In this document: positions 4,969-39,552 of the stretch, in pieces
Layout of the letters: each line of letters begins with the position of its first letter
Numbering within the stretch: position 1 is the first letter of the stretch
IMG/VR virus record: IMGVR_UViG_3300029268_000040
Location: 1 to 42,053 of that record
Length of the DNA: 42,053 nt
From: a virus
Strand: one strand, 5' to 3'
Program-made: the position numbers and the translations under genes
Notes under the pieces: model-generated
Database searches by the model: none
The model's input: only the letters and a program-made list of their open reading frames with translations
What the model was told of the DNA's origin: nothing

Positions 4969-7031
4969 TGCCAGTTCAGAGAGCACCAATAGATTTTGCC
5001 CCACAAGCAAAAGAATATACTGCTAAACAGCTGAATGCTCAGGTATGTAAAAACTGGTATGGAAATATAGACGAAAGTGCAGCATTTAAAAAAGTGCTAT
5101 TCCCCTTTCCTGGTTCTGATCTATGGTCGGATGATAGCGGTCTAAATGATAATGTCAGGGGAATGTACAGTCTAAACGGTTATTTTTATGCTGTAATTGA
5201 TGATGAATTTAGAATATATAACGATAATGGTGACTGGAATAAAGTAGGCACGCTCAAAACCGCCATGGGAATTGTTAAGTTTATGGCAAATGATAATCAA
5301 ATATTTGTTACTGATTATCAATTTGGATATATATATCAATTGGTAACTACTTCTTCCAGGACAGCCGGAACTTTCTTTCAGATTACGAATGCAAGTTCTG
5401 ATATTGGAAAGGTAACCTTTCTTGGTTCGGGCATGGGTACCGGCGAACTATCAGCTTTGGGTACATTTACAGGAAGTAATGATAGAAGATATTACATTAC
5501 AATTGATGGTCAATCTCTATCATCTATAACAACTCCAATTTTCACAGGAACTGGAAAGAATGATCCTATAGTTACGTCTGGAATTTACAACGGTTTGGTA
5601 AATAAAAATTTTGTGGTACAGATAGATGGTTTATCCACAACTGACACGTTTAAATGGAGCAATAACGGAGGGGTAACATGGGCTGCATCAACAGTTCCTG
5701 TTTCTCTTTCTCCGATAACATTACAAGACGGGATAAAAATAGTTTTTAAATTTATAACCGGTCACACTATGGCCGATTCATGGTCGTTTACTGGCAATGC
5801 TGCTGGGACTGAGGACACATTTAAATGGAGCAATGATGGTGGTACTACTTTTACAGGACAAAACATACCTATTACTAGCTTTGACCAACCTTTGGATGAT
5901 GGAATAATAATAAAATTCGTACATACTTCTGGTTATACTAAAAACGACAGCTGGATTTTTGATGTTACTATTGATGATGTATTTTATCCGCCTATTACAC
6001 CAATTTATTTAGATACTTATGGGGTTTTCCCAAAGAGTAATACTGAAAGATTTTATATATCTGATATTGAAGATTTTAGTTCTGTAAATGCACTGGATTA
6101 TGCGAGTACTAATGCTTTCCCTGATAATGTTGTTTGTGGAATAGCTATTAATCAAGAAATATTCTTTATTGGAAATTATACAACTGAAGTTTGGATCGAT
6201 GCGGGTACGAGTCCTTTCCCATTTCAGAGAAGGCCTAATTTACTTATAAATTGGGGAACAAAAGCACCATATTCTTTAGCTTCAGCTTCTAACAATGTAG
6301 TATTTTGGCTTGCTCAAAACATTAATGGTGGTCGTGTGGTTGTCATGCTAGTTAATTATCAAGCGCATGTGATTTCTGACAAGCCTCTAAATGACAAATT
6401 GCAAGAGTATGATTATATAGATGATGCATTTGGTTTTGTATGCGAATGGACAGGAAAGATATTTTATTTTCTTACTTTCCCAAGTCAGGATATAACATGG
6501 GTTTATGATTTTGATTCCCAAGCTTGGAGGCAGAGAACAACTGTACGAGCTCCGAATGATGTTAAAGATAAAGATTATATTGAGGGTAGATATTTAGCTA
6601 ATTGTCATGTTTATCATAATGGAGAACATTATATTGGTGATTGGCAAAGTGGAAAGATTTATAGAATGTCTGGTACTTATTTTAAAGATGGTCTTATGCC
6701 AATAATTAATGAAGCGATTAGCGCTCCATTACATGTTAATTTGAATAGGATAGCTGTGTATTCGTTACAGCCAGCATTAGAAGCGGCTGTTGGATTGGTT
6801 TCAGGACAAGGAAGCGATCCAATCGTTATGTTGCAATACTCTACAGATGGTGGTTATAGCTGGAGTAAAGAAATTCATGCAACTGTAGGTAAGGTTGGTG
6901 AGACGATGAGACGTTGTAAATTTAATAAACTAGGGTTTGGACGGGAATTCGTATTTAAAATAAGAATTTCCGATCCGATATATAAAGTATTAAAAGGTGC
7001 AATTGTAGAAATAGAAGATACTGGATCATAA
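4968..7031 (+). CDS. P22 gp10-like packaged-DNA stabilisation / tail needle-base protein
   Basis: A 687-residue protein that begins with the PVQRAPIDFAPQAKEY type N-terminus. It carries the family's beta-propeller-like core: NWYGN, FPFPGSD, VRGMY.LNGYFYAV near residues 30-75, FIGNYTTEVWIDAG and FPFQR in the middle, WVYDFDSQAWRQR later. P22 gp10 closes the portal channel after gp4. Two tandem insertions of about 50 residues (about 225-276 and 283-332), each beginning DTFKWSN.GG.T, break the propeller and are unusual for the family; they resemble surface beta modules. The start overlaps the gp4-like stop. Confidence 0.85.
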   Translation: MPVQRAPIDFAPQAKEYTAKQLNAQVCKNWYGNIDESAAFKKVLFPFPGSDLWSDDSGLNDNVRGMYSLNGYFYAVIDDEFRIYNDNGDWNKVGTLKTAMGIVKFMANDNQIFVTDYQFGYIYQLVTTSSRTAGTFFQITNASSDIGKVTFLGSGMGTGELSALGTFTGSNDRRYYITIDGQSLSSITTPIFTGTGKNDPIVTSGIYNGLVNKNFVVQIDGLSTTDTFKWSNNGGVTWAASTVPVSLSPITLQDGIKIVFKFITGHTMADSWSFTGNAAGTEDTFKWSNDGGTTFTGQNIPITSFDQPLDDGIIIKFVHTSGYTKNDSWIFDVTIDDVFYPPITPIYLDTYGVFPKSNTERFYISDIEDFSSVNALDYASTNAFPDNVVCGIAINQEIFFIGNYTTEVWIDAGTSPFPFQRRPNLLINWGTKAPYSLASASNNVVFWLAQNINGGRVVVMLVNYQAHVISDKPLNDKLQEYDYIDDAFGFVCEWTGKIFYFLTFPSQDITWVYDFDSQAWRQRTTVRAPNDVKDKDYIEGRYLANCHVYHNGEHYIGDWQSGKIYRMSGTYFKDGLMPIINEAISAPLHVNLNRIAVYSLQPALEAAVGLVSGQGSDPIVMLQYSTDGGYSWSKEIHATVGKVGETMRRCKFNKLGFGREFVFKIRISDPIYKVLKGAIVEIEDTGS

Positions 7032-7310: not shown

Positions 7311-8036
7311 ATGTTAAGTTCTATTTTTGGTGGTTCTGGTAATGCTCAAGATATATATGGTGCAAGTGAGCAAAAAATACTTGATGCTATTAAAGCAGCT
7401 CAAGCGCAAGGGCGAACAGATATTGCGGATTCATTGAAAAAATCAATGGGGATGAATCAGCCTTATATGCAAGCTGGCACTGATGCTATGTCTGCTTATT
7501 TAAACAGTTTGGGGATTGGTGATAAAGGTGCTGCTGGTCAAAGTTCTTTGATGCAGCAATTTCAATCTAGTCCCGGTTATACATATGCAGTTAATGAAGC
7601 AACTAATGCTGCAAGAAGAAGAGCTGCGGCAAGTGGGCAAGGAATGTCTGGAGCTGAAATGAGGGGTATATCAGCTCAAACTCAAGGAATAGCGAATCAA
7701 GACTGGAGCAATTGGTTAAATAACTATCAGGGTAGATTGAGTAATATAGCTGGAATGGGACAAGCTTCTGCTTCACATCAATCGGGATTAGAAGCTCAAG
7801 GCGGAATGGGCTTGGCTAATTTAGGATTGAATTATACAAAGATGAGCACAGAAGAGATGCAGGCTGCGGCGAAGGCTAAGGCTGAGGCTGAGATGTCTAA
7901 AGGAAACTGGTTAGGTAGTATGGGCAGTTTGCTTGGTGGCGTGGGTGGCTTTATGTTTGGGGGTCCGGCTGGAGCTGCTGCCGGTTCTCAAGGTGGAAAG
8001 GGTGCTATGGATTGGTTATCTAAATTATTCCAATAG
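7311..8036 (+). CDS. Ejection protein, P22 gp7-like
   Basis: A 241-residue protein. The signature of this family is present: SSPGYTYAVNEATNAARRRAAASGQ.MSG, then ISAQTQGIA.QD..NWLNNYQ.RL..IAGMGQ (about residues 87-150). The C-terminus has a glycine-rich hydrophobic stretch (MGSLLGGVGGFMFGGPAG), suited to membrane insertion. In P22 such proteins leave the virion and help carry DNA across the host envelope. It is the first of three consecutive ejection-type genes. The RBS is GAGG. Confidence 0.85.
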   Translation: MLSSIFGGSGNAQDIYGASEQKILDAIKAAQAQGRTDIADSLKKSMGMNQPYMQAGTDAMSAYLNSLGIGDKGAAGQSSLMQQFQSSPGYTYAVNEATNAARRRAAASGQGMSGAEMRGISAQTQGIANQDWSNWLNNYQGRLSNIAGMGQASASHQSGLEAQGGMGLANLGLNYTKMSTEEMQAAAKAKAEAEMSKGNWLGSMGSLLGGVGGFMFGGPAGAAAGSQGGKGAMDWLSKLFQ

Positions 8037-8045
8037 GTGAAAATT

Positions 8046-9473
8046 ATGGCGTTAGACATGACCCCAAATTATTTAGGTTTTGCAGAATTAGAAGCAAGAA
8101 AAGGTGGTAGCCCCATAATGCAGGCTCTTAAAACTGGCCTTCAAACCTATGGTGATGTTCAGGATTTGATCCAGAAGACACGGATAACACAAGCACAGCC
8201 TAAAGAAATAGAACAAAAATTAAAGCGTGGAGAGCAGGAAGTAAAACGTGGTGAGCAATTATTAGTCAAAGGAGAATTGGAGGCAAAATTTCTTCCTACT
8301 CAATTACAGCAAGAGCAAACAGCGCGACAATATGAAGTGGAAACTAAAAGATTGCTTTTAAAAGCTTTGCCACAAGATATAAGAAATAAATTAAGCTCAC
8401 AACAATTAAATAATATTCATCTTGGGCTACAAAACAAAGTGGCGTCTATGTCAGTTGATCAATTGCAAGAGCAAGTTGCTCAAGGTGAATTAGCAAAAAT
8501 ATATCAGACGCATTTAAATTATCCTGAAGGGAAAGACGATCAATACCAACTTTCCAGGAAAAAGCTCAAACATTACGGCATGGATTTGCCTGAAAATTTA
8601 GATGATAGTGTCATTGCCAGAGCAAAAAGTGCTTATGATACAGCACAAAGGATGGATCCATTTAATCAAGCAATGGCAAAAATAAGATTGATGAATGAGG
8701 GAAAAGTAGATGTTGCTGAACTCAAAAAAACAAACGGTGCGCAATCTGCATTTGATAAAAAAGCCGAAGGGATAAGTGCTCAATGGTTAGAACAAGACTT
8801 GCCAAATGCTGCGGCAACAGCGAATGATATTAAGATTCAAGCACAAGATATGAGAAACTCAGTTAAAGAAAATGAATGGGCTTATGGCCCAGTCGTAGGA
8901 AATGTAACTAAATTTGCATTACCTTTTGTTAATCAAGCTGATGCTAAAAGTTTAAATATAGCTTTAGATAAACTTGCTGCAACTCCTGGAGCATCAAGAG
9001 GAACCAAGGCATTGTTGTCTACAATTATTCGGGCAAAAGTTAGCGTTTCTGATCCAGTATCAGCTATTTATGGCAAGTTAGATGATATTGAAGCAGCCAC
9101 TCATATAACTCAGCAGCAGTTGAGTTTTGCTAATATGATGCGACAGAATGGGATAACTTCTAAAGCACAAATTGAGGAATCATGGGATAAGTTTTTGGGT
9201 TCACAAAAATTCAAAGATGCTCATGGAAAATTGAGAGGCGAATTGGCAGATACTTGGGATGAATATTTTACTGAACATCCCGAAGATTTACCTCAGGCTG
9301 CTAAACAAAAAATGGCTGACGACCAAAAGTTTGGAAATGCTGTCCAGACTCAACAATTAACTAACGAAGTTTTTGGAGGTGCAGCAGGACCATCAGCGCC
9401 ATTCAATAATGGAATAATTTCAGATTTCAATCCTGGATCAGCTAGTCCAAACTCTATATTAACTGGTGAATAA
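8046..9473 (+). CDS. Ejection (pilot) protein with coiled coils
   Basis: A 475-residue protein. The ATG at 8046 is chosen over the GTG at 8037 because AGGTGA sits 6 bases before it. Residues about 30-120 are rich in Lys, Glu and Gln (KLKRGEQEVKRGEQLL) and should form a coiled coil; the rest is mostly helical and soluble. There is no enzyme motif. Its place between a gp7-like gene and a large membrane-active gene matches P22 gp20 or gp16, so a DNA-injection role is inferred. The stop overlaps the next start (TAATG). Confidence 0.75.
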   Translation: MALDMTPNYLGFAELEARKGGSPIMQALKTGLQTYGDVQDLIQKTRITQAQPKEIEQKLKRGEQEVKRGEQLLVKGELEAKFLPTQLQQEQTARQYEVETKRLLLKALPQDIRNKLSSQQLNNIHLGLQNKVASMSVDQLQEQVAQGELAKIYQTHLNYPEGKDDQYQLSRKKLKHYGMDLPENLDDSVIARAKSAYDTAQRMDPFNQAMAKIRLMNEGKVDVAELKKTNGAQSAFDKKAEGISAQWLEQDLPNAAATANDIKIQAQDMRNSVKENEWAYGPVVGNVTKFALPFVNQADAKSLNIALDKLAATPGASRGTKALLSTIIRAKVSVSDPVSAIYGKLDDIEAATHITQQQLSFANMMRQNGITSKAQIEESWDKFLGSQKFKDAHGKLRGELADTWDEYFTEHPEDLPQAAKQKMADDQKFGNAVQTQQLTNEVFGGAAGPSAPFNNGIISDFNPGSASPNSILTGE

Positions 9474-18241: not shown

Positions 18242-18805
18242 ATGATAAAAAAAGAAGATTGCAAAAGATTCGAAAAATTCTTTGATAAAAATGACAATAA
18301 TTGCTGGGTATGGAAAGGTGCTTATGTAGGTGGTTATCATGTAGGTGGTGGTTATGGAGGCTTTGCTTATAAAGGAAGAGTAGTCAGGGCTCATAGGTTC
18401 TCTTATGAGCTTTACAAGGGAAAGATTTCGGAAGGAATGCTTGTTTGCCATCATTGTGATAATAGAAAATGTGTTAATCCATCACATCTATTTCTTGGCA
18501 CGCACAAAGATAATGCAAAAGACAGGGACAATAAAGGAAGATATTCTAGTGCTAAAGGAAGAATATGTTCAAAAGAAACCAAGATCAAAATAGGAAAAGC
18601 TAATACTGGTAGACCAAAGACACCGGAATTATTGGAAGTAATAAGTAAAAACCAACTTAGACTGTGGGCTGATCCTATATATAGAAAAAAAATGATTAAA
18701 GCACATATTGGTAAAAAACTTTCTCTTGAGCATCGACGGAAAATGAGTGAGGCGCAAAGTGAACGAAGAAGAAAAGAAGCAACGTCCAAAAACGAAATAT
18801 GTTGA
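18242..18805 (+). CDS. HNH homing endonuclease with NUMOD3-like repeats
   Basis: A 187-residue protein. An HNH_3 type core reads AHRFSYEL, LVCHHCDNRKCVNPSHLFLGTHKDNAKD (H70/H71, N79, H82; C72 and C77). Two NUMOD3-like DNA-binding helices follow: TKIKIGKANTGRP and IGKKLSLEHRRKMSEAQ. Free-standing HNH genes of this kind are mobile and insert between late genes. Its last 47 bases overlap the start of the next gene, so it may have inserted into or captured the holin upstream region. It is unrelated in sequence to the HNH gene inside the terminase intein except for the core motif. Confidence 0.9.
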   Translation: MIKKEDCKRFEKFFDKNDNNCWVWKGAYVGGYHVGGGYGGFAYKGRVVRAHRFSYELYKGKISEGMLVCHHCDNRKCVNPSHLFLGTHKDNAKDRDNKGRYSSAKGRICSKETKIKIGKANTGRPKTPELLEVISKNQLRLWADPIYRKKMIKAHIGKKLSLEHRRKMSEAQSERRRKEATSKNEIC

Positions 18806-21478: not shown

Positions 21479-22435
21479 TCAAATTTTAATAATATCAACG
21501 CGAAAGTATTTTTTTACCTGTTCATATTGAGATTTAATTTCAGCAGGTACATTGTAATTTTTTCTCTCAAATTCCTTAATTTTGATTATCCAATCTGTAC
21601 CTATGCATATATCACCAATTTTATTAAATTGGCTTTTTATATTATCGTCAAGATTATTATATTCATCTACTAGGGGCTTAAGTTCTAAGCGTCGTTCAAG
21701 CTTGCTTTCAAGCTCCTTATCGTCAATCATGGTCGCCCCTTCATACTTCGTTAGGCACGGGCAGAGGTGCTTAAACGAGCAATAGGCGCAAATTTTCTCA
21801 TCAAAATCCATAGGTTTTGGAAGGATGCCAGTTTTTATATTTTCATCCCATAGCCTCTCCAATCTACTTATTATTTTTTCAACCTCTTCTAGATCAAGAA
21901 TTACAGGAAGAAATTTATATGAACCCAAACAATTGGATAAGATAAAAACACCTTCGCTTTGATTGTTTCCATACAAATATAGTTGCATCTGAACCAGGTA
22001 TTTCCGGTGTAATGGTTTTTTTAAAAAATCTGCCAATGAGGTTATAGAAGCAAAAATATTGGGATGCATCGATTTAATTTCTATGGGGAAAATCCTATCA
22101 AAATACGAAATCTTGCCATCTATATGACCGCGGCAAATAACTTCACCATTTCGGTTTTTTATCTCAAAGGGCTGTTGTGATTCGATTATTGAAAACCCTA
22201 AACTTAATAGCTCGGTAATTACCGTTCGTTCTTCGAGATTTCCTCTATCAAATCTGCTTTGCAAACTGGAATTATGGAGAGACTTATCGTTCCAGCTAAG
22301 TATCGAATGGCATAATTCCAAATCACAAGAAGAAATATTTGAAGCCCGAAATTTGTCCGCGGGGAATCGTTTGATTTTGGCTGACAGAGATTCTTCCCGC
22401 TTAGATTCGATTTCATCTATGAGGATTGATAGCAT
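21479..22435 (-). CDS. PD-(D/E)XK nuclease, Cas4/RecB-like, with Fe-S cysteines
   Basis: A 318-residue protein. The nuclease core shows GHIDG (D106), PIEIKSM (E119, K121) and QLYLY (Q151, Y155). Cysteines fit an iron-sulphur cluster as in Cas4 and AddB: one from the N-terminal SSCDLELC (C37 or C42) and CAYCSFKHLCPC (C216, C219, C225, C227). The C-terminal 90 residues are helical. It abuts the single-strand annealing gene, so the pair is probably a lambda Red-type recombination system in which this enzyme resects DNA ends. No CRISPR array or other cas gene is present. Confidence 0.88.
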   Translation of the reverse strand: MLSILIDEIESKREESLSAKIKRFPADKFRASNISSCDLELCHSILSWNDKSLHNSSLQSRFDRGNLEERTVITELLSLGFSIIESQQPFEIKNRNGEVICRGHIDGKISYFDRIFPIEIKSMHPNIFASITSLADFLKKPLHRKYLVQMQLYLYGNNQSEGVFILSNCLGSYKFLPVILDLEEVEKIISRLERLWDENIKTGILPKPMDFDEKICAYCSFKHLCPCLTKYEGATMIDDKELESKLERRLELKPLVDEYNNLDDNIKSQFNKIGDICIGTDWIIKIKEFERKNYNVPAEIKSQYEQVKKYFRVDIIKI

Positions 22436-23269
22436 TTATTTCCCCCCAGCTTGTGCCCAAGCGCATACATCTTCGTAGTCTTTCTTTTCGATGTCTCTGC
22501 TACTATCGATATTATAATTTGTCATCAAGTAATCTTTAAGTTGATCATTTGTAATATTAGCTTGCTTTGCGATTGCAAAGAGGCGCTTGCCCTGTGCTTC
22601 CGATATTTTACCGCCACCTTGCCCACCAGATGCGTAAGTAATTTTGTTGATTCTTTCAACCTTATGTTCAGTATTGGCCCAGGATGATTGCAATTGGTCG
22701 AAGGTCAAAGTATCCATGCCGAGGAGGGTTTTGAGCCCGCGAGCAAAGCAGTTTGTGAACGCGGATTTCTTTATATTAGTTTCGTCCACCTCTGAACTTG
22801 GCTTGAAAACGCCACCAGCTTTAGCAAAGAACTGAGCTCGCGAAGACTTAGTACCAATTTCTTGAATTGTTTCAATCGCTCCAGAAGGATTTTTCAGGTG
22901 AAACAGCATTGTATATGTATAAATATAAAACGAACCTTTATCATCATTTGAAAATTCTTTCGTAATATTTTTTATTTCAGAACTTACGCCAAATAACCTA
23001 GCTATTTTTTTACATCCTGATGCTTTTAAGTAGGCATTCCCTCCGAGATTTTCCCAATCATTTTGATTTGTAACTTTCAAGCACAGGATTGTTATCTTAT
23101 TAATGAGATCTATTCTTTTCTCTGCTGCACTTAAAATTGTCTCGTTAGTAGCTGTACTTGGCAATCCAACTGATAGTGCAGCCGGAACATTTGCCGTCGG
23201 TTCTGCTATAACATTATTATTAAAAACTTCTTCTAAACTCATTTCATTTGTTGTTTTGGTATCGTTCAT
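22436..23269 (-). CDS. Single-strand annealing protein, Rad52/Erf-type (inferred)
   Basis: A 277-residue protein with AAGGA upstream. Residues about 60-200 contain YLKASGCKKIARLFGVSSE, YTYTMLFHLKNPSGAIE, EIGTKSSRAQFFAKAGG and ETNIKKSAFTNCFARGLKTLLGM, which resemble phage annealing proteins of the Rad52/Erf group. A separate C-terminal domain (about 215-275: ISEAQGKRLFAIAKQANI.) is seen on many phage recombinases. The downstream nuclease starts immediately after its stop. Family assignment by eye is moderate; its recombination role is supported by the partner gene. Confidence 0.7.
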   Translation of the reverse strand: MNDTKTTNEMSLEEVFNNNVIAEPTANVPAALSVGLPSTATNETILSAAEKRIDLINKITILCLKVTNQNDWENLGGNAYLKASGCKKIARLFGVSSEIKNITKEFSNDDKGSFYIYTYTMLFHLKNPSGAIETIQEIGTKSSRAQFFAKAGGVFKPSSEVDETNIKKSAFTNCFARGLKTLLGMDTLTFDQLQSSWANTEHKVERINKITYASGGQGGGKISEAQGKRLFAIAKQANITNDQLKDYLMTNYNIDSSRDIEKKDYEDVCAWAQAGGK

Positions 23270-24804: not shown

Positions 24805-24935
24805 GTGTTTAGCGAAGTGCTTTAGGTGCATCAAATCCGTTCTTCTAGAATGGTTGAATCTTTGCACTCTGGCCTTGATAAAGCTAGAAACCTAAAACAC
24901 CTGAGCACTTCGCTAAGCGCACATAAGGAATGCTT
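24805..24935 (+). ncRNA. Structured leader RNA, copy 2, of the replication operon
   Basis: The closing stem is 24809-24821 (TTAGCGAAGTGCT) with 24904-24916, again 13 bp but different in sequence from copy 1: compensatory change. GTGC (24826-24829) pairs with GCAC (24864-24867); CCGTTC and GAATGG form an inner hairpin. Conserved unpaired core: CATCAAATCC and GGTTGAA. AGGTG can alternatively pair with CACCT (24898-24902). TAAGC at the end of the closing stem can pair with GCTTA around the AAGGA site. This arrangement suggests translational switching of the replication gene; no ligand is known. Confidence 0.75.
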
Positions 24936-25289
24936 ATGTCAAGTTTTTTTATGAATGAAGAATGTGTTTTTGTTTCTCCTTCTCTTGCTTCATTAATTGG
25001 TTTAAGTGAAGCTATCCTTTTGCAAAAATTAGAAACTTTGATATCAAATTCAAAAGACAAAGAACAAGCTTGTTATTCAGTCCCAGATTTAGAAAAACAT
25101 CTCCCTTTTTGGTCACGTAATACTATCAAATCATTAATCTATCATCTTCAAAAATCAAAATTTATTTTTGTGGAGAAAAATTTTAATAGAGGAGAAATCG
25201 CAGAATGTTTTTATAAAATTAATTTTGCCGAGCTTGAGAGGATTATAAAAATCTCAAAAATAACGGAAAATGATATTCAAATGATTTGA
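24936..25289 (+). CDS. Winged-helix replication-region protein
   Basis: A 117-residue protein. The ATG at 24936 is chosen over the ATG at 24930 because the AAGGA site is then 6 bases away. VFVSPSLASLIGLSEAILLQKLETLI followed by SVPDLEKHLPFWSRNTIKSLIYHL is the pattern of phage replication-protein N-terminal domains, a winged helix that usually binds origin DNA or a helicase. It lacks a second domain and may act with the initiator downstream. It is translated from the leader-RNA site. Confidence 0.75.
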   Translation: MSSFFMNEECVFVSPSLASLIGLSEAILLQKLETLISNSKDKEQACYSVPDLEKHLPFWSRNTIKSLIYHLQKSKFIFVEKNFNRGEIAECFYKINFAELERIIKISKITENDIQMI

Positions 25290-25339: not shown

Positions 25340-26194
25340 ATGCTTAAACAGAAAAAGGGAACGTTTTGCAATGTTCCTCTTAAGATGATTGAGGGGTTTC
25401 CTCCTATGCGCCAAACGGTTTTTTCATGGCTTTGTTTTCATGCTGATAAAAAGATGCGATGTTTCCCTTCCATTGAATTACTATGCCAAGAATGTGGCTC
25501 CAAAAGAACTGCGGTTATAGAAGCTATAAAATATTTGGAAGGGGTCGGTTATTTAAAGAAAAAAAGAAGACGAAATGCAAGTACTATTTATCAAATTATT
25601 ATTAAAGATATGGAAATAAAAGTTACAAATTCAGATGATGACAAAAAGTTATCCACAGAAGATTCAGGAAGTCCGTTAAACGGACATCCTGAAGATTTAG
25701 GAAGTCCGTTTAACGGACCCCGGAAGTCCGTTAAACGGACTCTAACTATACTCACTGAACTAAATCCATTAAAAGATACTCACCCCGATTTTTCAAAAAC
25801 GGAAAAATTGGGGTGTCTTTCTCTTTTTGATTTTTTTTGGAAAGCATACCCAGTAAAAAGATCAAAAGAGGCTGCCAATAAGATTTTTAATAAATTAAAA
25901 ATAGATGAAATTTTATTGCAGGAGATTTTAGAATCTATAAAACTTCAAAAAGAGGAAAGAAAAAATTCAAAAGAAAAAAAAGAACTTGTTCCGGCTTGGA
26001 TGAATCCGGGAACATGGCTTAAAAATAAACGTTGGACTGATGAGCGTCCCGAGCCAAAGAAAAAAGATGAGTTTCATACAGCAAGTCCGCCAGTCCCAAA
26101 AACTGCAGAGCGAATTAAAAGCGCCGAGGTTGGCATCAATGCAATGAAAGAAATAATAGGGGGGCTCCCTAATGCAAAATCAAGCAAATGTTGA
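25340..26194 (+). CDS. Replication initiator, lambda O-like
   Basis: A 284-residue protein. Residues about 20-90 form a winged helix (QTVFSWLCFHADKKMRCFPS, RTAVIEAIKYLEGVGYLKKK). A hinge (about 105-135) is encoded by the origin iterons. The C-terminal domain (about 162-240) has LFDFFWKAYPVKRSKEAA and PAWMNPGTWLKNKRWTDE, the usual ending of phage O-like proteins that recruit helicase. No phage helicase or loader gene is visible, so host proteins are probably used. GGAAGTGGT precedes the ATG. Confidence 0.85.
   Translation: MLKQKKGTFCNVPLKMIEGFPPMRQTVFSWLCFHADKKMRCFPSIELLCQECGSKRTAVIEAIKYLEGVGYLKKKRRRNASTIYQIIIKDMEIKVTNSDDDKKLSTEDSGSPLNGHPEDLGSPFNGPRKSVKRTLTILTELNPLKDTHPDFSKTEKLGCLSLFDFFWKAYPVKRSKEAANKIFNKLKIDEILLQEILESIKLQKEERKNSKEKKELVPAWMNPGTWLKNKRWTDERPEPKKKDEFHTASPPVPKTAERIKSAEVGINAMKEIIGGLPNAKSSKC
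25649..25740. other. Predicted replication origin inside the initiator gene
   Basis: A perfect DnaA box TTATCCACA lies at 25649-25657. Three 15-bp palindromic iterons follow: 25671-25685 and 25726-25740 (GTCCGTTAAACGGAC) and 25704-25718 (GTCCGTTTAACGGAC). Start-to-start distances are 33 and 22 bp, multiples of 11, so all lie on one face of the helix. Each is preceded by GGAA or GAA. An AT-rich run follows to about 25860. This is the lambda ori layout. Confidence 0.85.
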
Positions 26195-26345: not shown

Positions 26346-26499
26346 CATTGTTGAAAAAGTTAAAAAAGAAACACGATATCCAGAAAAACCAGAGTATTAT
26401 ATCTACTTGGCCAGGAAGCATGGCAAAGAAACGGCCAAGTTTTTGTACGAACTGTATCTTAACCTAGGGAATGTCGATAATGAGTTTAAAGGCGAATAG
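26317..26499 (+). CDS. Small basic hypothetical protein
   Basis: A 60-residue protein starting at TTG 26317, with GGAGG 7 bases upstream; the ATG at 26332 is the alternative. The first half is Lys-rich; YYIYLARKHGKETAKFLYELYLNLG is probably helical. It overlaps the RusA start, so the two are probably co-translated. Confidence 0.65.
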   Translation: MKLKPMKKPNIVEKVKKETRYPEKPEYYIYLARKHGKETAKFLYELYLNLGNVDNEFKGE

Positions 26500-26998
26500 A
26501 CGCTTCCTGGGGAACTTTATAAATTTGGAAGGGGGTAGTGACCCCAAGGTGGAGATCATGCCTCCTGAGGGGCTTAAAGAGCCTTTAATCATGTTTTCCT
26601 CATTCCCTCCTAGCTCAAACGCCCTATACCCAGCAAGCGGGGGTCATAGGCATCTTTCAAAAAAGGCTGCCAAATACAAGACTGATGTTCAATGGCAGTT
26701 CAAGAGGAGATTCCCAAAATTCGAGATGGTGCCAAAGGGTGTGCCATTCAGCAAATTGTTTGCAATCCTAGATTTATACCCGCCTGATAATCGGGAAAGG
26801 GATGTGGACAATTTCAGCAAACTTTTGATCGATTCCTTCATTGGGCTGATTTATGAGGATGATAGCCAAGTTAAAAAATTGCTGATTGAAATGCACGAAG
26901 TCGAAGCACCGGGATCAGCGATAATTACATTCGGCTTGCTTGATGATTTTCAACAATACCTCGAAAAAGCCAAAGATATTACTGAAGTTCAACTTTAG
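26480..26998 (+). CDS. rusA: RusA-family Holliday junction resolvase
   Basis: A 172-residue protein. The ATG at 26480 has AGGGA about 9 bases upstream; ATG 26471 is the alternative. The RusA signature is clear: FPPSSNALYP near residue 40, and RERDVDNFSKLLIDSFIGLIYEDDSQV, with the acidic residues that bind magnesium. It cuts four-way junctions and other branched DNA, resolving recombination or replication intermediates before packaging. It is the last gene of the replication operon. The N-terminal 30 residues are an extension of unknown use. Confidence 0.92.
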   Translation: MSLKANRRFLGNFINLEGGSDPKVEIMPPEGLKEPLIMFSSFPPSSNALYPASGGHRHLSKKAAKYKTDVQWQFKRRFPKFEMVPKGVPFSKLFAILDLYPPDNRERDVDNFSKLLIDSFIGLIYEDDSQVKKLLIEMHEVEAPGSAIITFGLLDDFQQYLEKAKDITEVQL

Positions 26999-32236: not shown

Positions 32237-34903
32237 ATGCTTACCCGCGAAATGTCAAAGCTGATGAAGCGTGTGGAGTATGCGGCTTCGGTCAAAGAAA
32301 ATCACAATCAAGTTATTATAGACTTAGACAACTATACTATAATCGTTCCCGATTATCCCGAGCCTACAGTATATAGGCCTACATCTACGGCCCTAGCGTT
32401 CCACAGAGCAGATGATCGCGTACGGGTGATACGTGGGCACGTAGGCAGTGGTAAGTCAACCATGATGTGTGCAGAGATTGTATTCAGAGCGGTTAAGATG
32501 GCGGCATGTAAGGACGGGATAAGGCGGAGTAGGTGGGCTATTGTCCGTAATACCTACGGCGATTTAGCCAAGACAACATTAACCACGTGGAAGATGTGGT
32601 TTGCTAACCTAGGCTCGATGAGATGGAGGGAAGGAAAAAGCTTTACAATAGATCACACATTCAATGCTATTGTTAAACAAAATGGTACTGAAGAAACGCA
32701 CAAGGTAGAGATGCAATTGCTACCCATTGCATTAGATAACGTTAGTGACGTTACCAAGCATTTAAAATCACTCGAAGTTACGGGGGTATTTTTAAATGAA
32801 CTATCAGAACTTAATCGCATGGTGCTTGATTTCTTCTCTGGTGGCCGTCTTCCTCGGTTTCCTAGCCTTAAAGATATGCCCGAAGGTGTTGCGTACTGGT
32901 GCGGCATCTTTGCTGATACGAACCCACCTGAGGTTTCGAGCTGGATATATAAATTATTTGAAGTTGATAAGCCGCAAGAATATACAATGTTCGTACAGCC
33001 ACCAGCAGTATTGAAGGAGAATGATAAATATATAATTAACCCTAATGCGGAGAACCTTAAAAATATTCAAAATGGTGAGCAAGAATATATAAAGATGACT
33101 TGGGGCAAATCAGAAAGTTTTATACAAGTTTATCTTATGGGTGAATATGGAACGTTGAGTGATGAGAAAAGAGTCTATTATAGTTATAACGATGATATTC
33201 ATAGTAGTGATCATATCGTTATTGATTATAAATCACCTTTGATTATTGGCGTTGACCTAGGCACTGTTGCACCTGCTTTTATAATCGGACAGATGCAGGG
33301 GCCGGTGCTTGTTGGTATCAAAGAATTTTGCGGAGAGTTCACGACAATTAGGGAAATGTGTAATGATGCTGTAATGCCTTGGCTTCATGATAATTGCAAA
33401 GGGATGAGGCTTGGGGCGGTAGTGTTTGATATCGCGAAAACCGACCATGGCGATGTTCAGCTGCGCGAATTTTTCGGTTCTGTAGTTATTCCTGCGCAAA
33501 CTAATAATATTTCACAGAGAATAGACGCAGTAGCAAAACGTTTATCTCGTTTGTCACAGGGCAAGCCTTTACTTGTTATCAGTCGTTCTGGTTGTCCGGA
33601 ATTACGTAAAGGATTTAATGGAAAATATTATTATAGAAGAGTAAAAATAATTGGAGAAGAGAAATTTACAGAGGAACCTTACAAAAATCATCCATTCAGC
33701 GATTGTTTAATCGCTGGAACTAAAGTAATGATGGCCGATTGCTCAGAAATGAATATTGAAGATATAAAGCCCGATATGATGGTATTAACACCAAGCGGAG
33801 CACGCAAAGTAACCCATGCATGGTTGGCGCGAAAGAATGCAGTTGTTTATGAATATACGTTCAGTAATGGATCAACGTTAGTAGCTACGCCAGAGCATAA
33901 GATATTTACAGATCGTGGGTGGATAGAAATAAATAAGTTGACCATTAATGATATGTTATTAAGTATTAATAATAAGGGTTGCTCATGGTTAAAGTTGTTT
34001 GTAAATTTTGCAAAAAAGAACTTGAAACATCTCAATGGAAGATTAATCACGGCGAAGGAAAACATTGCTCGCGCAATTGTGCATTTGCGGGTAGAAGAAA
34101 AAAATATGGCATTGAGATTGACGATAAATGGTTCACGCTTAGTAGTAATGGAAAATATTATGAAAACAAAAATGGAAAAACCACAATTGAATTACATAGA
34201 TATATTTGGGAAAAATACAATGGGAAGATTCCAAAGAAGATGTGCATACATCACAAGGATGGTAACAGCCTTAATAATACCATTGAAAATTTGGAACTTA
34301 TGTCCACTATTGAACACAACCGTATGCATACAAAAGAACGATATATACAACATCCAGAGCTCAAAAAACATGCCCTTGATGCCGCTAGAACTTCGGGGAA
34401 GGCTTGGCATGGAACTAAAGAGGGTTTGGAGTGGCACAGCAAAAATGGTAAAAAATCTTGGCTTAAAAGAACAAAGAAAGTATTTAAATGTTGGAGATGT
34501 GGAAAAGAATATGAAGCTTATAGCGCAGGATATTGCTCCTCAGTTTGTAGTGAAAAAGAAAGATACAGAAAGCTTATTAATGATAAAGTTAAAAAATGCG
34601 TTATATGTAATAAAGAATTTTTTGTTCATAAACGTACAAAGACCAAAACATGTGGCCACACTTGTAGATACGCGCTTATGCTCAGAACTAAAAGACGTAT
34701 ACGATATAACGGTTGAAGATGAACATTGCTTTTTTGCTAATGGACTACTTGTACATAATTGTCACGACGCATGGCAGTATATTAATCTACATGTCAACTA
34801 TGAGACAGAATTATCGCATACATTTGATCCAAAGGCAGAAGCTCTAGAAAAGTGGGAATTTAAAAAGTTTAGGAATAAAGCCGATGGTGTGACAGGTTAT
34901 TAA
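32237..34903 (+). CDS. terL: Terminase large subunit interrupted by an intein
   Basis: An 888-residue precursor. The ATPase has Walker A GHVGSGKS (67-74) and Walker B VTGVFLNELSE (181-191). The RNase H-like nuclease has IIGVDLG (D340), GAVVFDIAK (D398) and a third acid in CHDAWQY (D844). The last motif is split: HPFSD, then the intein (residues 490-841), then CHDAWQY. Removing it leaves a 536-residue terminase of normal size. The intein site, inside a catalytic motif, is typical of inteins. An HNH gene lies in another frame within the intein. The protein packages DNA through the portal and cuts the concatemer. Confidence 0.95.
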   Translation: MLTREMSKLMKRVEYAASVKENHNQVIIDLDNYTIIVPDYPEPTVYRPTSTALAFHRADDRVRVIRGHVGSGKSTMMCAEIVFRAVKMAACKDGIRRSRWAIVRNTYGDLAKTTLTTWKMWFANLGSMRWREGKSFTIDHTFNAIVKQNGTEETHKVEMQLLPIALDNVSDVTKHLKSLEVTGVFLNELSELNRMVLDFFSGGRLPRFPSLKDMPEGVAYWCGIFADTNPPEVSSWIYKLFEVDKPQEYTMFVQPPAVLKENDKYIINPNAENLKNIQNGEQEYIKMTWGKSESFIQVYLMGEYGTLSDEKRVYYSYNDDIHSSDHIVIDYKSPLIIGVDLGTVAPAFIIGQMQGPVLVGIKEFCGEFTTIREMCNDAVMPWLHDNCKGMRLGAVVFDIAKTDHGDVQLREFFGSVVIPAQTNNISQRIDAVAKRLSRLSQGKPLLVISRSGCPELRKGFNGKYYYRRVKIIGEEKFTEEPYKNHPFSDCLIAGTKVMMADCSEMNIEDIKPDMMVLTPSGARKVTHAWLARKNAVVYEYTFSNGSTLVATPEHKIFTDRGWIEINKLTINDMLLSINNKGCSWLKLFVNFAKKNLKHLNGRLITAKENIARAIVHLRVEEKNMALRLTINGSRLVVMENIMKTKMEKPQLNYIDIFGKNTMGRFQRRCAYITRMVTALIIPLKIWNLCPLLNTTVCIQKNDIYNIQSSKNMPLMPLELRGRLGMELKRVWSGTAKMVKNLGLKEQRKYLNVGDVEKNMKLIAQDIAPQFVVKKKDTESLLMIKLKNALYVIKNFLFINVQRPKHVATLVDTRLCSELKDVYDITVEDEHCFFANGLLVHNCHDAWQYINLHVNYETELSHTFDPKAEALEKWEFKKFRNKADGVTGY
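33704..34759 (+). mobile_element. Intein (352 residues) in terL with an out-of-frame HNH insert
   Basis: Block A: Cys1 in CLIAGTKVM. Block B: GSTLVATPEHKIFT (T62, H65). Blocks F and G: VYDITVEDEHCFFANGLLVHN, with His351 and Asn352, then Cys+1 of the extein. So all Hint splicing residues are present. In the intein frame, the 245 residues between blocks B and F match no endonuclease; they read through the region where a separate frame encodes the HNH protein. The frame stays open throughout, so splicing should still be possible. Confidence 0.92.
33985..34716 (+). CDS. HNH homing endonuclease encoded out of frame inside the intein
   Basis: A 243-residue protein in the -1 (+2) frame of terL. The ATG at 33985 has AAGGG 6 bases upstream. 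CKFCKK and CSRNC form an N-terminal zinc finger; RYIWEKYNG precedes the HNH core CIHHKDGNSLNNTIENLELMSTIEHNRMH (H89, H90, N102, H111, H115). Two more Cys4 fingers follow (CWRCGK...CSSVC, CVICNK...CGHTC). The stop lies within intein block F. It would probably cut intein-less terL alleles and spread the element. Confidence 0.92.
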   Translation: MVKVVCKFCKKELETSQWKINHGEGKHCSRNCAFAGRRKKYGIEIDDKWFTLSSNGKYYENKNGKTTIELHRYIWEKYNGKIPKKMCIHHKDGNSLNNTIENLELMSTIEHNRMHTKERYIQHPELKKHALDAARTSGKAWHGTKEGLEWHSKNGKKSWLKRTKKVFKCWRCGKEYEAYSAGYCSSVCSEKERYRKLINDKVKKCVICNKEFFVHKRTKTKTCGHTCRYALMLRTKRRIRYNG

Positions 34904-38074: not shown

Positions 38075-39094
38075 ATGGCCAGAAAAAAAACAGAAAAGTC
38101 GCCGATGGATATAGCTATTGATCAGCAAACTGAGACTCCAGGTCAAGATGATTCAATTGTAGACACATCTGATTATGGGGAGCAAACAAACGTCTTGCCA
38201 GATGAAGTAGCGCAGGAACATTTAAACATTGAAGACAGTCCCCCGCAAGAAAGCGATACATCCGAATCGTTTTATACAGATATAGAGCTCAGAGCAATCG
38301 AGACAGGGTGGGTTCCTAAAGAAGCATATCATGGTGATGAAGCTAATTGGCGTGATGCGAAAACCTGGAATGATAAGAATAAAACGCTCTCCTTAGTTGA
38401 AGAACAGCGTAGAAAGATCGAGCAAATGGAGAAAACGCAAATTGAAATGCTTCAAATGATGAGGGAGGAGCGTGCTAGAGCTAATGAAATTCAAATATAT
38501 AAATTAGAAAAAGACAAGGAAGATGCTATTAGATTAGCAGATGTTAATGCAGTTAGGGAATTGGACGAAAGTATATCCAAATTGCGAGCAATTCCAGGGC
38601 CCAGCAAGCAAGCACCGGCTGAAAATGCTCAGCAAGTTCCAAATGAAGTAACGGAATTTGTAGGACGTAATAAGTGGTTTAACGGAACTGATGAATTGAG
38701 CGCTCGTAAAACTTTATATGCAAAAGCGTTAGAAAACGAATTGAATATTAAAAAAAGCGATATGTCCTTATCTGAAAAGATGTTACATATTGAAAATGAA
38801 GTAGCAAAAATATTTGATAAATCGAAACCTGTTACTAACAATATTGCTCCAGTAGAAAATAGGAGAACAACTATGAACACAAGAAATCCATCGAATGGTT
38901 TACCTAGTTATGAATCTTTACCAAAAGAAGCTCAGAAATTGATTGAATATTATGCAAAGAAAGAAGAATTCAGGGCTAAAAGAAACAATAAAGCTTTTAA
39001 TATTAATGAATATCGGGCGCGTTATGTTCGGGAATTAATTAAAAATAATACAATTGATGGCAAAGGCATTCCAAATGTTAAAGGAGGAAAATAA
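38075..39094 (+). CDS. Scaffolding protein
   Basis: A 339-residue protein starting at ATG 38075, with GGAG 8 bases upstream; a GTG at 38069 is in frame. The N-terminal 80 residues are acidic and disordered. IELRAIETGWVPKEAYHGDEANWRDAKTW is the usual scaffold-type motif (about 70-100). A long charged coiled coil (about 105-175) follows, and the C-terminus is basic (AKKEEFRAKRNNKAFN), the type of helix that binds the capsid protein. It acts before the decoration and capsid genes. Confidence 0.85.
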   Translation: MARKKTEKSPMDIAIDQQTETPGQDDSIVDTSDYGEQTNVLPDEVAQEHLNIEDSPPQESDTSESFYTDIELRAIETGWVPKEAYHGDEANWRDAKTWNDKNKTLSLVEEQRRKIEQMEKTQIEMLQMMREERARANEIQIYKLEKDKEDAIRLADVNAVRELDESISKLRAIPGPSKQAPAENAQQVPNEVTEFVGRNKWFNGTDELSARKTLYAKALENELNIKKSDMSLSEKMLHIENEVAKIFDKSKPVTNNIAPVENRRTTMNTRNPSNGLPSYESLPKEAQKLIEYYAKKEEFRAKRNNKAFNINEYRARYVRELIKNNTIDGKGIPNVKGGK

Positions 39095-39096
39095 TC

Positions 39097-39552
39097 ATGG
39101 CTAGTGACAAACAAATAGAAAAACAGGTGGAAATCCAAGCTGTACAAACACCTGAAGACAGGAGAATTAAAGCTAAAGAGAGGGCGAAAAACCTAACTAG
39201 AAAGAAACAATTTAATTATGCCCAGCATGGAATTAATGAAAACGACAAGAGATTCCATTTTCACTGGTCAAATATTGATGGTGCTAGAGGTTCAAACCTT
39301 GATATGTACTTGGAAAACGGGTATTCTAAATGTTTAGACAAAGAAGGCCATGACATACGGCGAAAAGGTCATACTCTTGGCCATTCTCAGATTTTATTAC
39401 GCATTCCAATCGAAGAATACAATTTGATACAGCATTATAAGTTAGACGAACCACGAGAAATACAAAAATCAATTGGCAAGAAAGATATTGCCAACCTACC
39501 TGAAGAACACATTTATGGTGATGTAATAACTACATCAGAAATAATCAAATAA
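39097..39552 (+). CDS. Conserved hypothetical protein of the head block
   Basis: A 151-residue protein with GGAGG upstream. The N-terminus is basic and helical; HFHWSNIDGARGSNLDMYLENGYSK is a pattern I associate with small proteins after scaffold genes in related phages. ILLRIPIEEYNLIQHYKLDEPREI may be a beta-alpha core. The function is unknown; capsid assembly is likely from position. Confidence 0.75.
   Translation: MASDKQIEKQVEIQAVQTPEDRRIKAKERAKNLTRKKQFNYAQHGINENDKRFHFHWSNIDGARGSNLDMYLENGYSKCLDKEGHDIRRKGHTLGHSQILLRIPIEEYNLIQHYKLDEPREIQKSIGKKDIANLPEEHIYGDVITTSEIIK

Follow-up and report, generated by a model that had tools for sequence, protein, structure and literature searches.

Our analysis indicates, with a probability that we put at about 85%, that the replication origin of this phage lies within its initiator gene, in the codons of the hinge, where three palindromic iterons are followed by A+T-rich DNA and an inverted repeat. 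The window (the whole stretch of DNA that was analysed, a complete viral record of 42 kb) had been predicted to hold a lambda-type origin within an initiator gene, and this prediction is well supported by comparison with other initiators: hinge repeats scored above all shuffled versions of the gene in 64/99 initiator genes, compared with 8/145 neighbouring open reading frames (ORFs) of the same loci. The role in replication is deduced from this recurrence and from the likeness to known origins, which are discussed below.

The initiator gene and its neighbours

The initiator gene (25340-26194, + strand) encodes a protein of 284 aa that matches Pfam HTH_36 (4.9e-10) and the replication initiation protein family phrog_270 (4.4e-27). 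The protein consists of an N-terminal winged helix (HTH_36, residues 25-72, codons 25412-25555, +), a hinge, and a C-terminal domain marked by the motif FDFFWKAYP...TWLKNKRW, and the phrog_270 match covers residues 15-257, that is, both the N- and C-terminal domains. The HTH_36 domain is likely to be the part that binds the iterons. The codons of the C-terminal domain (25814-26080, +) were delimited by a phrog_9474 match to residues 159-250 and by alignment; this domain is common to the surveyed relatives, which share the motif as FDFFWKAYP...TWLKNKRWTDE, and it presumably contacts the helicase or its loader. The gene had been described as O-like, which fits its N-terminal half, as the O-like PHROGs 391, 345, and 678 match mainly this part of the protein, but it does not fit the C-terminal domain, which differs from that of lambda O. 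The best PHROG for the initiator is phrog_270, while lambda O belongs to phrog_277. Comparison of the initiator family profile with lambda O and with P22 gp18 using hhalign gave no confident or significant match, and by both PHROG and hhalign comparison the initiator is not a full-length sequence relative of lambda O. The link between this family and lambda O and P22 gp18 runs via PHROG families. A sequence search of the PDB with the initiator returned weak winged-helix matches only, DnaD among them.

Directly upstream of the initiator gene, a 119-aa protein that resembles the N-terminal part of the DnaD-like helicase loader family (phrog_6493, 5.2e-14) is encoded at 24930-25289 (+), and a RusA-like resolvase (PF05866, 1.3e-9) is encoded downstream in the same early block at 26471-26998 (+). 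A helicase (DnaB homologue) and a P-like or DnaC-like loader were not found among the proteins searched, which covered part of the small ORFs. The interval 21479-23269 (-), divergent from the initiator block, encodes a Cas4-like exonuclease (phrog_1990, 1.6e-21) and, next to it, a 277-aa protein that matched no family clearly and is possibly a single-strand annealing partner.

A protein query with the initiator found no close relative in genome_contigs and a single distant one in viral_contigs. Pattern searches with the iteron and with the iteron pair gave no match, and neither did a search of the origin DNA against phages. The relatives of the initiator are about 20-31% identical to it at the protein level, and these distant relatives also have hinge repeats, which are of other sequence. 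The contig L105, which encodes a relative of the large terminase (71% identity), had no match to the initiator, and among the relatives found through the exonuclease only L108 had one. The large terminase itself (32237-34903, +) contains an intein at about 33704-34759 (Intein_splicing, 6e-16) whose frame is open, and an HNH endonuclease ORF (33979-34716, +; HNH_3, 3.5e-16) lies within the intein in another frame. The L105 terminase is free of the intein, its alignment jumping directly from residue 489 to residue 841. A second, free-standing HNH endonuclease (phrog_1872, 5e-32) is encoded at 18242-18805 (+).

Iterons and flanking elements in the hinge codons

Three perfect 15-bp palindromes (GTCCGTTWAACGGAC) start at positions 25671, 25704, and 25726, which confirms the predicted iterons at intervals of 33 and 22 bp. 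They begin at offsets of 331, 364, and 386 from the ATG and sit in the hinge between the two domains, at residues of about 110-134. Iteron 1 (GTCCGTTAAACGGAC, 25671-25685) encodes the peptide GSPLNG, iteron 2 (GTCCGTTTAACGGAC, 25704-25718) encodes GSPFNG in the same frame, and iteron 3 (GTCCGTTAAACGGAC, 25726-25740) encodes KSVKRT in a shifted frame. As GGAA precedes all three, the repeat extends to 19 bp. A search allowing up to three mismatches across the 42 kb recovered just these three perfect copies (0.21 expected) and none elsewhere in the record, and three copies were reached in 0/100 shuffles. We also identified a 31-bp near-perfect palindrome centred on iteron 1 (25663-25693; TTCAGGA-A-GTCCGTTAAACGGAC-A-TCCTGAA, with iteron 1 as its core) that the original prediction had overlooked. 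Set against the lambda type of array, which has inverted repeats of about 19 bp at a spacing of about two turns, the geometry agrees, with one interval of 22 bp but also one of 33 bp. Strict phasing in multiples of 11 bp, which had been read into these intervals, is not borne out by the relatives, where spacings of 21, 22, 23, and 24 bp are about equally common and correspond to roughly two turns.

An exact DnaA box (TTATCCACA, 25649-25657, +) that matches the consensus is present next to the iterons, as had been predicted. A second exact copy occurs at 5631, and the looser form TTWTNCACA occurs six times in the 42-kb window, compared with 7.1 expected. By chance, 200 bp of sequence would contain the exact form with a probability of 0.0025 and the loose one with a probability of 0.033. 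The box was rejected as a feature of the family, because exact boxes were found in only 2/99 initiator genes, this gene included (0.7 expected), and loose ones in nine (6.5 expected), both near chance. To conclude from the box that the phage makes direct use of host DnaA is therefore an over-reading. Compared with DnaA-dependent iteron origins of the P1, F, and RK2 type, which are marked by conserved DnaA boxes, this gene has a single exact box, while in the relatives boxes do not exceed chance. It is possible that host DnaA helps at the adjacent box, but the evidence does not require it.

Immediately after iteron 3 lies a 40-bp stretch (25741-25780) of 72% A+T, which by analogy with lambda is a candidate unwinding element. 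The predicted AT-rich flank is thus present but modest: the whole gene has 64% A+T, the stretch falls at the 20th percentile of contig stability, and the least stable tracts of the gene lie upstream at 25585-25629 and downstream at 25876-25920, both outside the originally predicted interval. Because these two tracts are less stable than the flank, the DNA might open on either side. In lambda and P22, in contrast, the 40 bp adjoining the iterons are the least stable DNA of the gene. Across the relatives, the A+T content of the 60 bp past the last iteron exceeded that of the gene in 29/31 genes (p = 5e-9). The position of the least stable DNA would also be compatible with an origin proper that lies elsewhere, with the palindromes serving mainly as sites for autorepression by the initiator or for handcuffing, which limits copy number, and operators too typically have palindromic sites. 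However, the iterons are found about 330 bp inside the coding sequence rather than at a promoter, family members have their arrays at an equivalent point of the hinge, and in gene O the origin of lambda is placed likewise. We consider this alternative very unlikely and favour an origin within the hinge.

Next to the A+T stretch, a fold and repeat search identified an inverted repeat at 25781-25815 (CACCCCGATTTTTC...GGAAAAATTGGGGTG, 14-bp arms including one G-T pair) and then a T-rich tract, which the original prediction had also overlooked. A downstream inverted repeat was significant relative to codon shuffles here, in lambda, in P22, and in L076, but not in the other 27/31 genes, and we rejected it as a feature of the family (4/31 genes). 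The stem-loops, the terminator-like repeat at 25781-25815 among them, might instead act in RNA by attenuating or otherwise regulating the early message. The strand folds into structures far more stable than those of shuffles (z of -9.2 and -5.1, DNA parameters), and the second of the hairpins has a terminator-like score, although terminator-like sites in the region are near chance (5 compared with 3.3). The repetition within one array and the unrelated repeats that replace it in relatives fit an array bound by protein better, and we find a function in RNA very unlikely.

Hinge repeats across initiator genes

The survey set of 99 genes comprised relatives retrieved via the C-terminal domain or by tblastn, together with lambda O and P22 gp18 as controls. 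A profile of six sequences worked for scanning relatives, while one of ten sequences was too diverse. The scan looked for 14-bp repeats within 150 bp and compared each gene with 30 codon-block shuffles of its own. At a score of at least 9, repeats were found in 57/99 initiators and 4/145 neighbouring ORFs. The positive controls lambda O and P22 gp18 returned arrays spaced 20, 24, and 23, and the array found in lambda is exactly its annotated iterons (39034-39118). Two of the neighbouring ORFs (L032:4056-4583 and L090:785-1372) contain 13 copies each, mostly at 12-bp steps; since all of their steps are multiples of three, these are probably peptide repeats.

Clustering at 70% identity left 42 HTH_36 genes and 42 others, with significant repeats in 29 and 27 of them, respectively. 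The hinge repeats of this phage could have been selected as peptide repeats of a flexible linker, with the DNA palindromes as a by-product. Iterons 1 and 2 do encode near-identical peptides and, contrary to the claim that the encoded residues differ in frame, share their frame (33 = 3 x 11), and in several HTH_36 relatives the repeats are 21 and 24 bp apart, which are multiples of three. That claim holds for iteron 3, in which the 15-bp palindrome is complete despite the change of frame. Moreover, at least one spacing is not divisible by three in 17/29 of the repeat-bearing HTH_36 genes and 18/27 of the others, or 35/56 together, and selection on a peptide repeat would not give such spacing. 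We therefore give this explanation almost no credence. The iteron sequence also varies from lineage to lineage, and the prediction that the array is selected as DNA is upheld by the differing repeats of the relatives and by their many spacings outside multiples of three.

The spacing of the repeats peaks at 21-24 bp in HTH_36 genes and at 10-12 bp in genes with other N-terminal domains. The median spacing was at least 17 bp in 24/29 HTH_36 genes compared with 6/27 others (Fisher p = 1e-5), or 4/25 others without lambda and P22 (p = 1.4e-6), in a test that assigned genes to classes with a small HMM made for this analysis, which rests on clusters rather than a phylogeny, and in which some members may be misassigned. 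In these sequences, the spacing seems to be associated with the kind of DNA-binding domain at the N-terminus. Inverted arms of at least 5 bp were found in 39% of HTH_36 iteron copies compared with 9% elsewhere in the same genes, and in 18% of non-HTH_36 iterons compared with a background of 10%. In the L108 initiator gene (7629-8689), the repeats (CGTACAAGTGGCGC) follow one another in four consecutive steps, each of exactly 11 bp, and clearly form a one-turn array. L108 shares the distant exonuclease with the studied phage, and a small ORF precedes its initiator as well, while its 11-bp array follows a different winged helix. Within open-access text, we found no paper on hinge iterons or on an association of spacing and domain for the HTH_36 family.

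A possible mechanism and a proposed exchangeable cassette

In the mechanism that we envisage, the initiator would use its N-terminal winged helix to bind as dimers to the three palindromic iterons, so that about 70 bp of DNA would be wrapped or bent. The neighbouring A+T-rich DNA would then open, as it does in lambda, most likely on the right, in the direction of the inverted repeat. The C-terminal domain may bring in the replicative helicase of the host, either directly or via the small DnaD-like protein encoded upstream; recruitment of a host helicase is proposed because the protein searches gave neither a phage helicase nor a P-like or DnaC-like loader. As the sequence of the hinge peptide can vary freely, its codons leave room for DNA sites.

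Extending this to the family, the N-terminal domain and its own sites in the adjacent hinge codons may form an origin cassette that is exchangeable against a common C-terminal loader domain. The type of domain would then set the geometry: HTH_36 would go with palindromic arrays of two-turn spacing, and the other domains with arrays of one-turn spacing. This phage would carry one such cassette in a lambda-like order. We give this broader proposal even odds. If the link between spacing and domain holds on a phylogeny, it would explain how replication specificity can change in one recombination step, and the staphylococcal plasmid pPR9, in which a block of N-terminus plus origin was replaced, provides a published precedent for such a swap (PMC5703833). 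Our analysis gives a defined origin candidate for a phage that has not been cultured. The survey also suggests that inspecting the hinge codons of initiator genes can reveal where the origins lie in many unrelated phages.

Comparison with known systems

An origin within the initiator gene, with binding sites that encode a linker, is already known for lambda and for RepA_N plasmids. In RepA_N plasmids such as pSK41, the Rep boxes are central in rep and are bound by a winged-helix N-terminus, the origin codes for a linker peptide, and the C-terminus contacts the host primase (PMC5703833). These plasmids differ from the present case in having an initiator of another protein family and Gram-positive hosts. 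Closer in protein are the phrog_270/HTH_36 initiators of Sulfitobacter, Microbulbifer, Pasteurella, and Piscirickettsia elements and of IMG/VR contigs, which have the same domains and the same position of the repeats in the hinge, usually at two-turn spacing. Unlike these relatives, the studied phage has its own iteron sequence and a downstream inverted repeat, which they usually lack.

The lambda origin occupies the middle of gene O, where imperfect inverted-repeat iterons of 19 bp bind O dimers; the DNA bends on binding, and about 40 bp of neighbouring A+T DNA opens on supercoiled templates (PMC7466680, PMC5043065). Both lambda O and P22 gene 18 resemble the studied gene in that the origin, here a candidate one, sits centrally within the gene, and in their inverted-repeat iterons of about 19 bp, which in lambda and P22 are spaced 20-24 bp apart. 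Here, however, there are three iterons rather than four, one interval is 33 bp, the iterons are perfect palindromes of unrelated sequence, and an exact DnaA box adjoins them. The C-terminal domain also differs, and neither a P-like loader nor a DnaB homologue was found among the proteins searched. What is shared with both phages is the order of iterons, a stretch of about 40 bp, and an inverted repeat: the distance from the last iteron to the inverted repeat is 43 bp (77% A+T) in lambda, where the repeat is GTCAGAGAATTCTGGCGAATCCTCTGAC, 38 bp (79% A+T) in P22, and 40 bp (72% A+T) here. The order of elements is therefore lambda-like, although the initiator protein belongs to another family.
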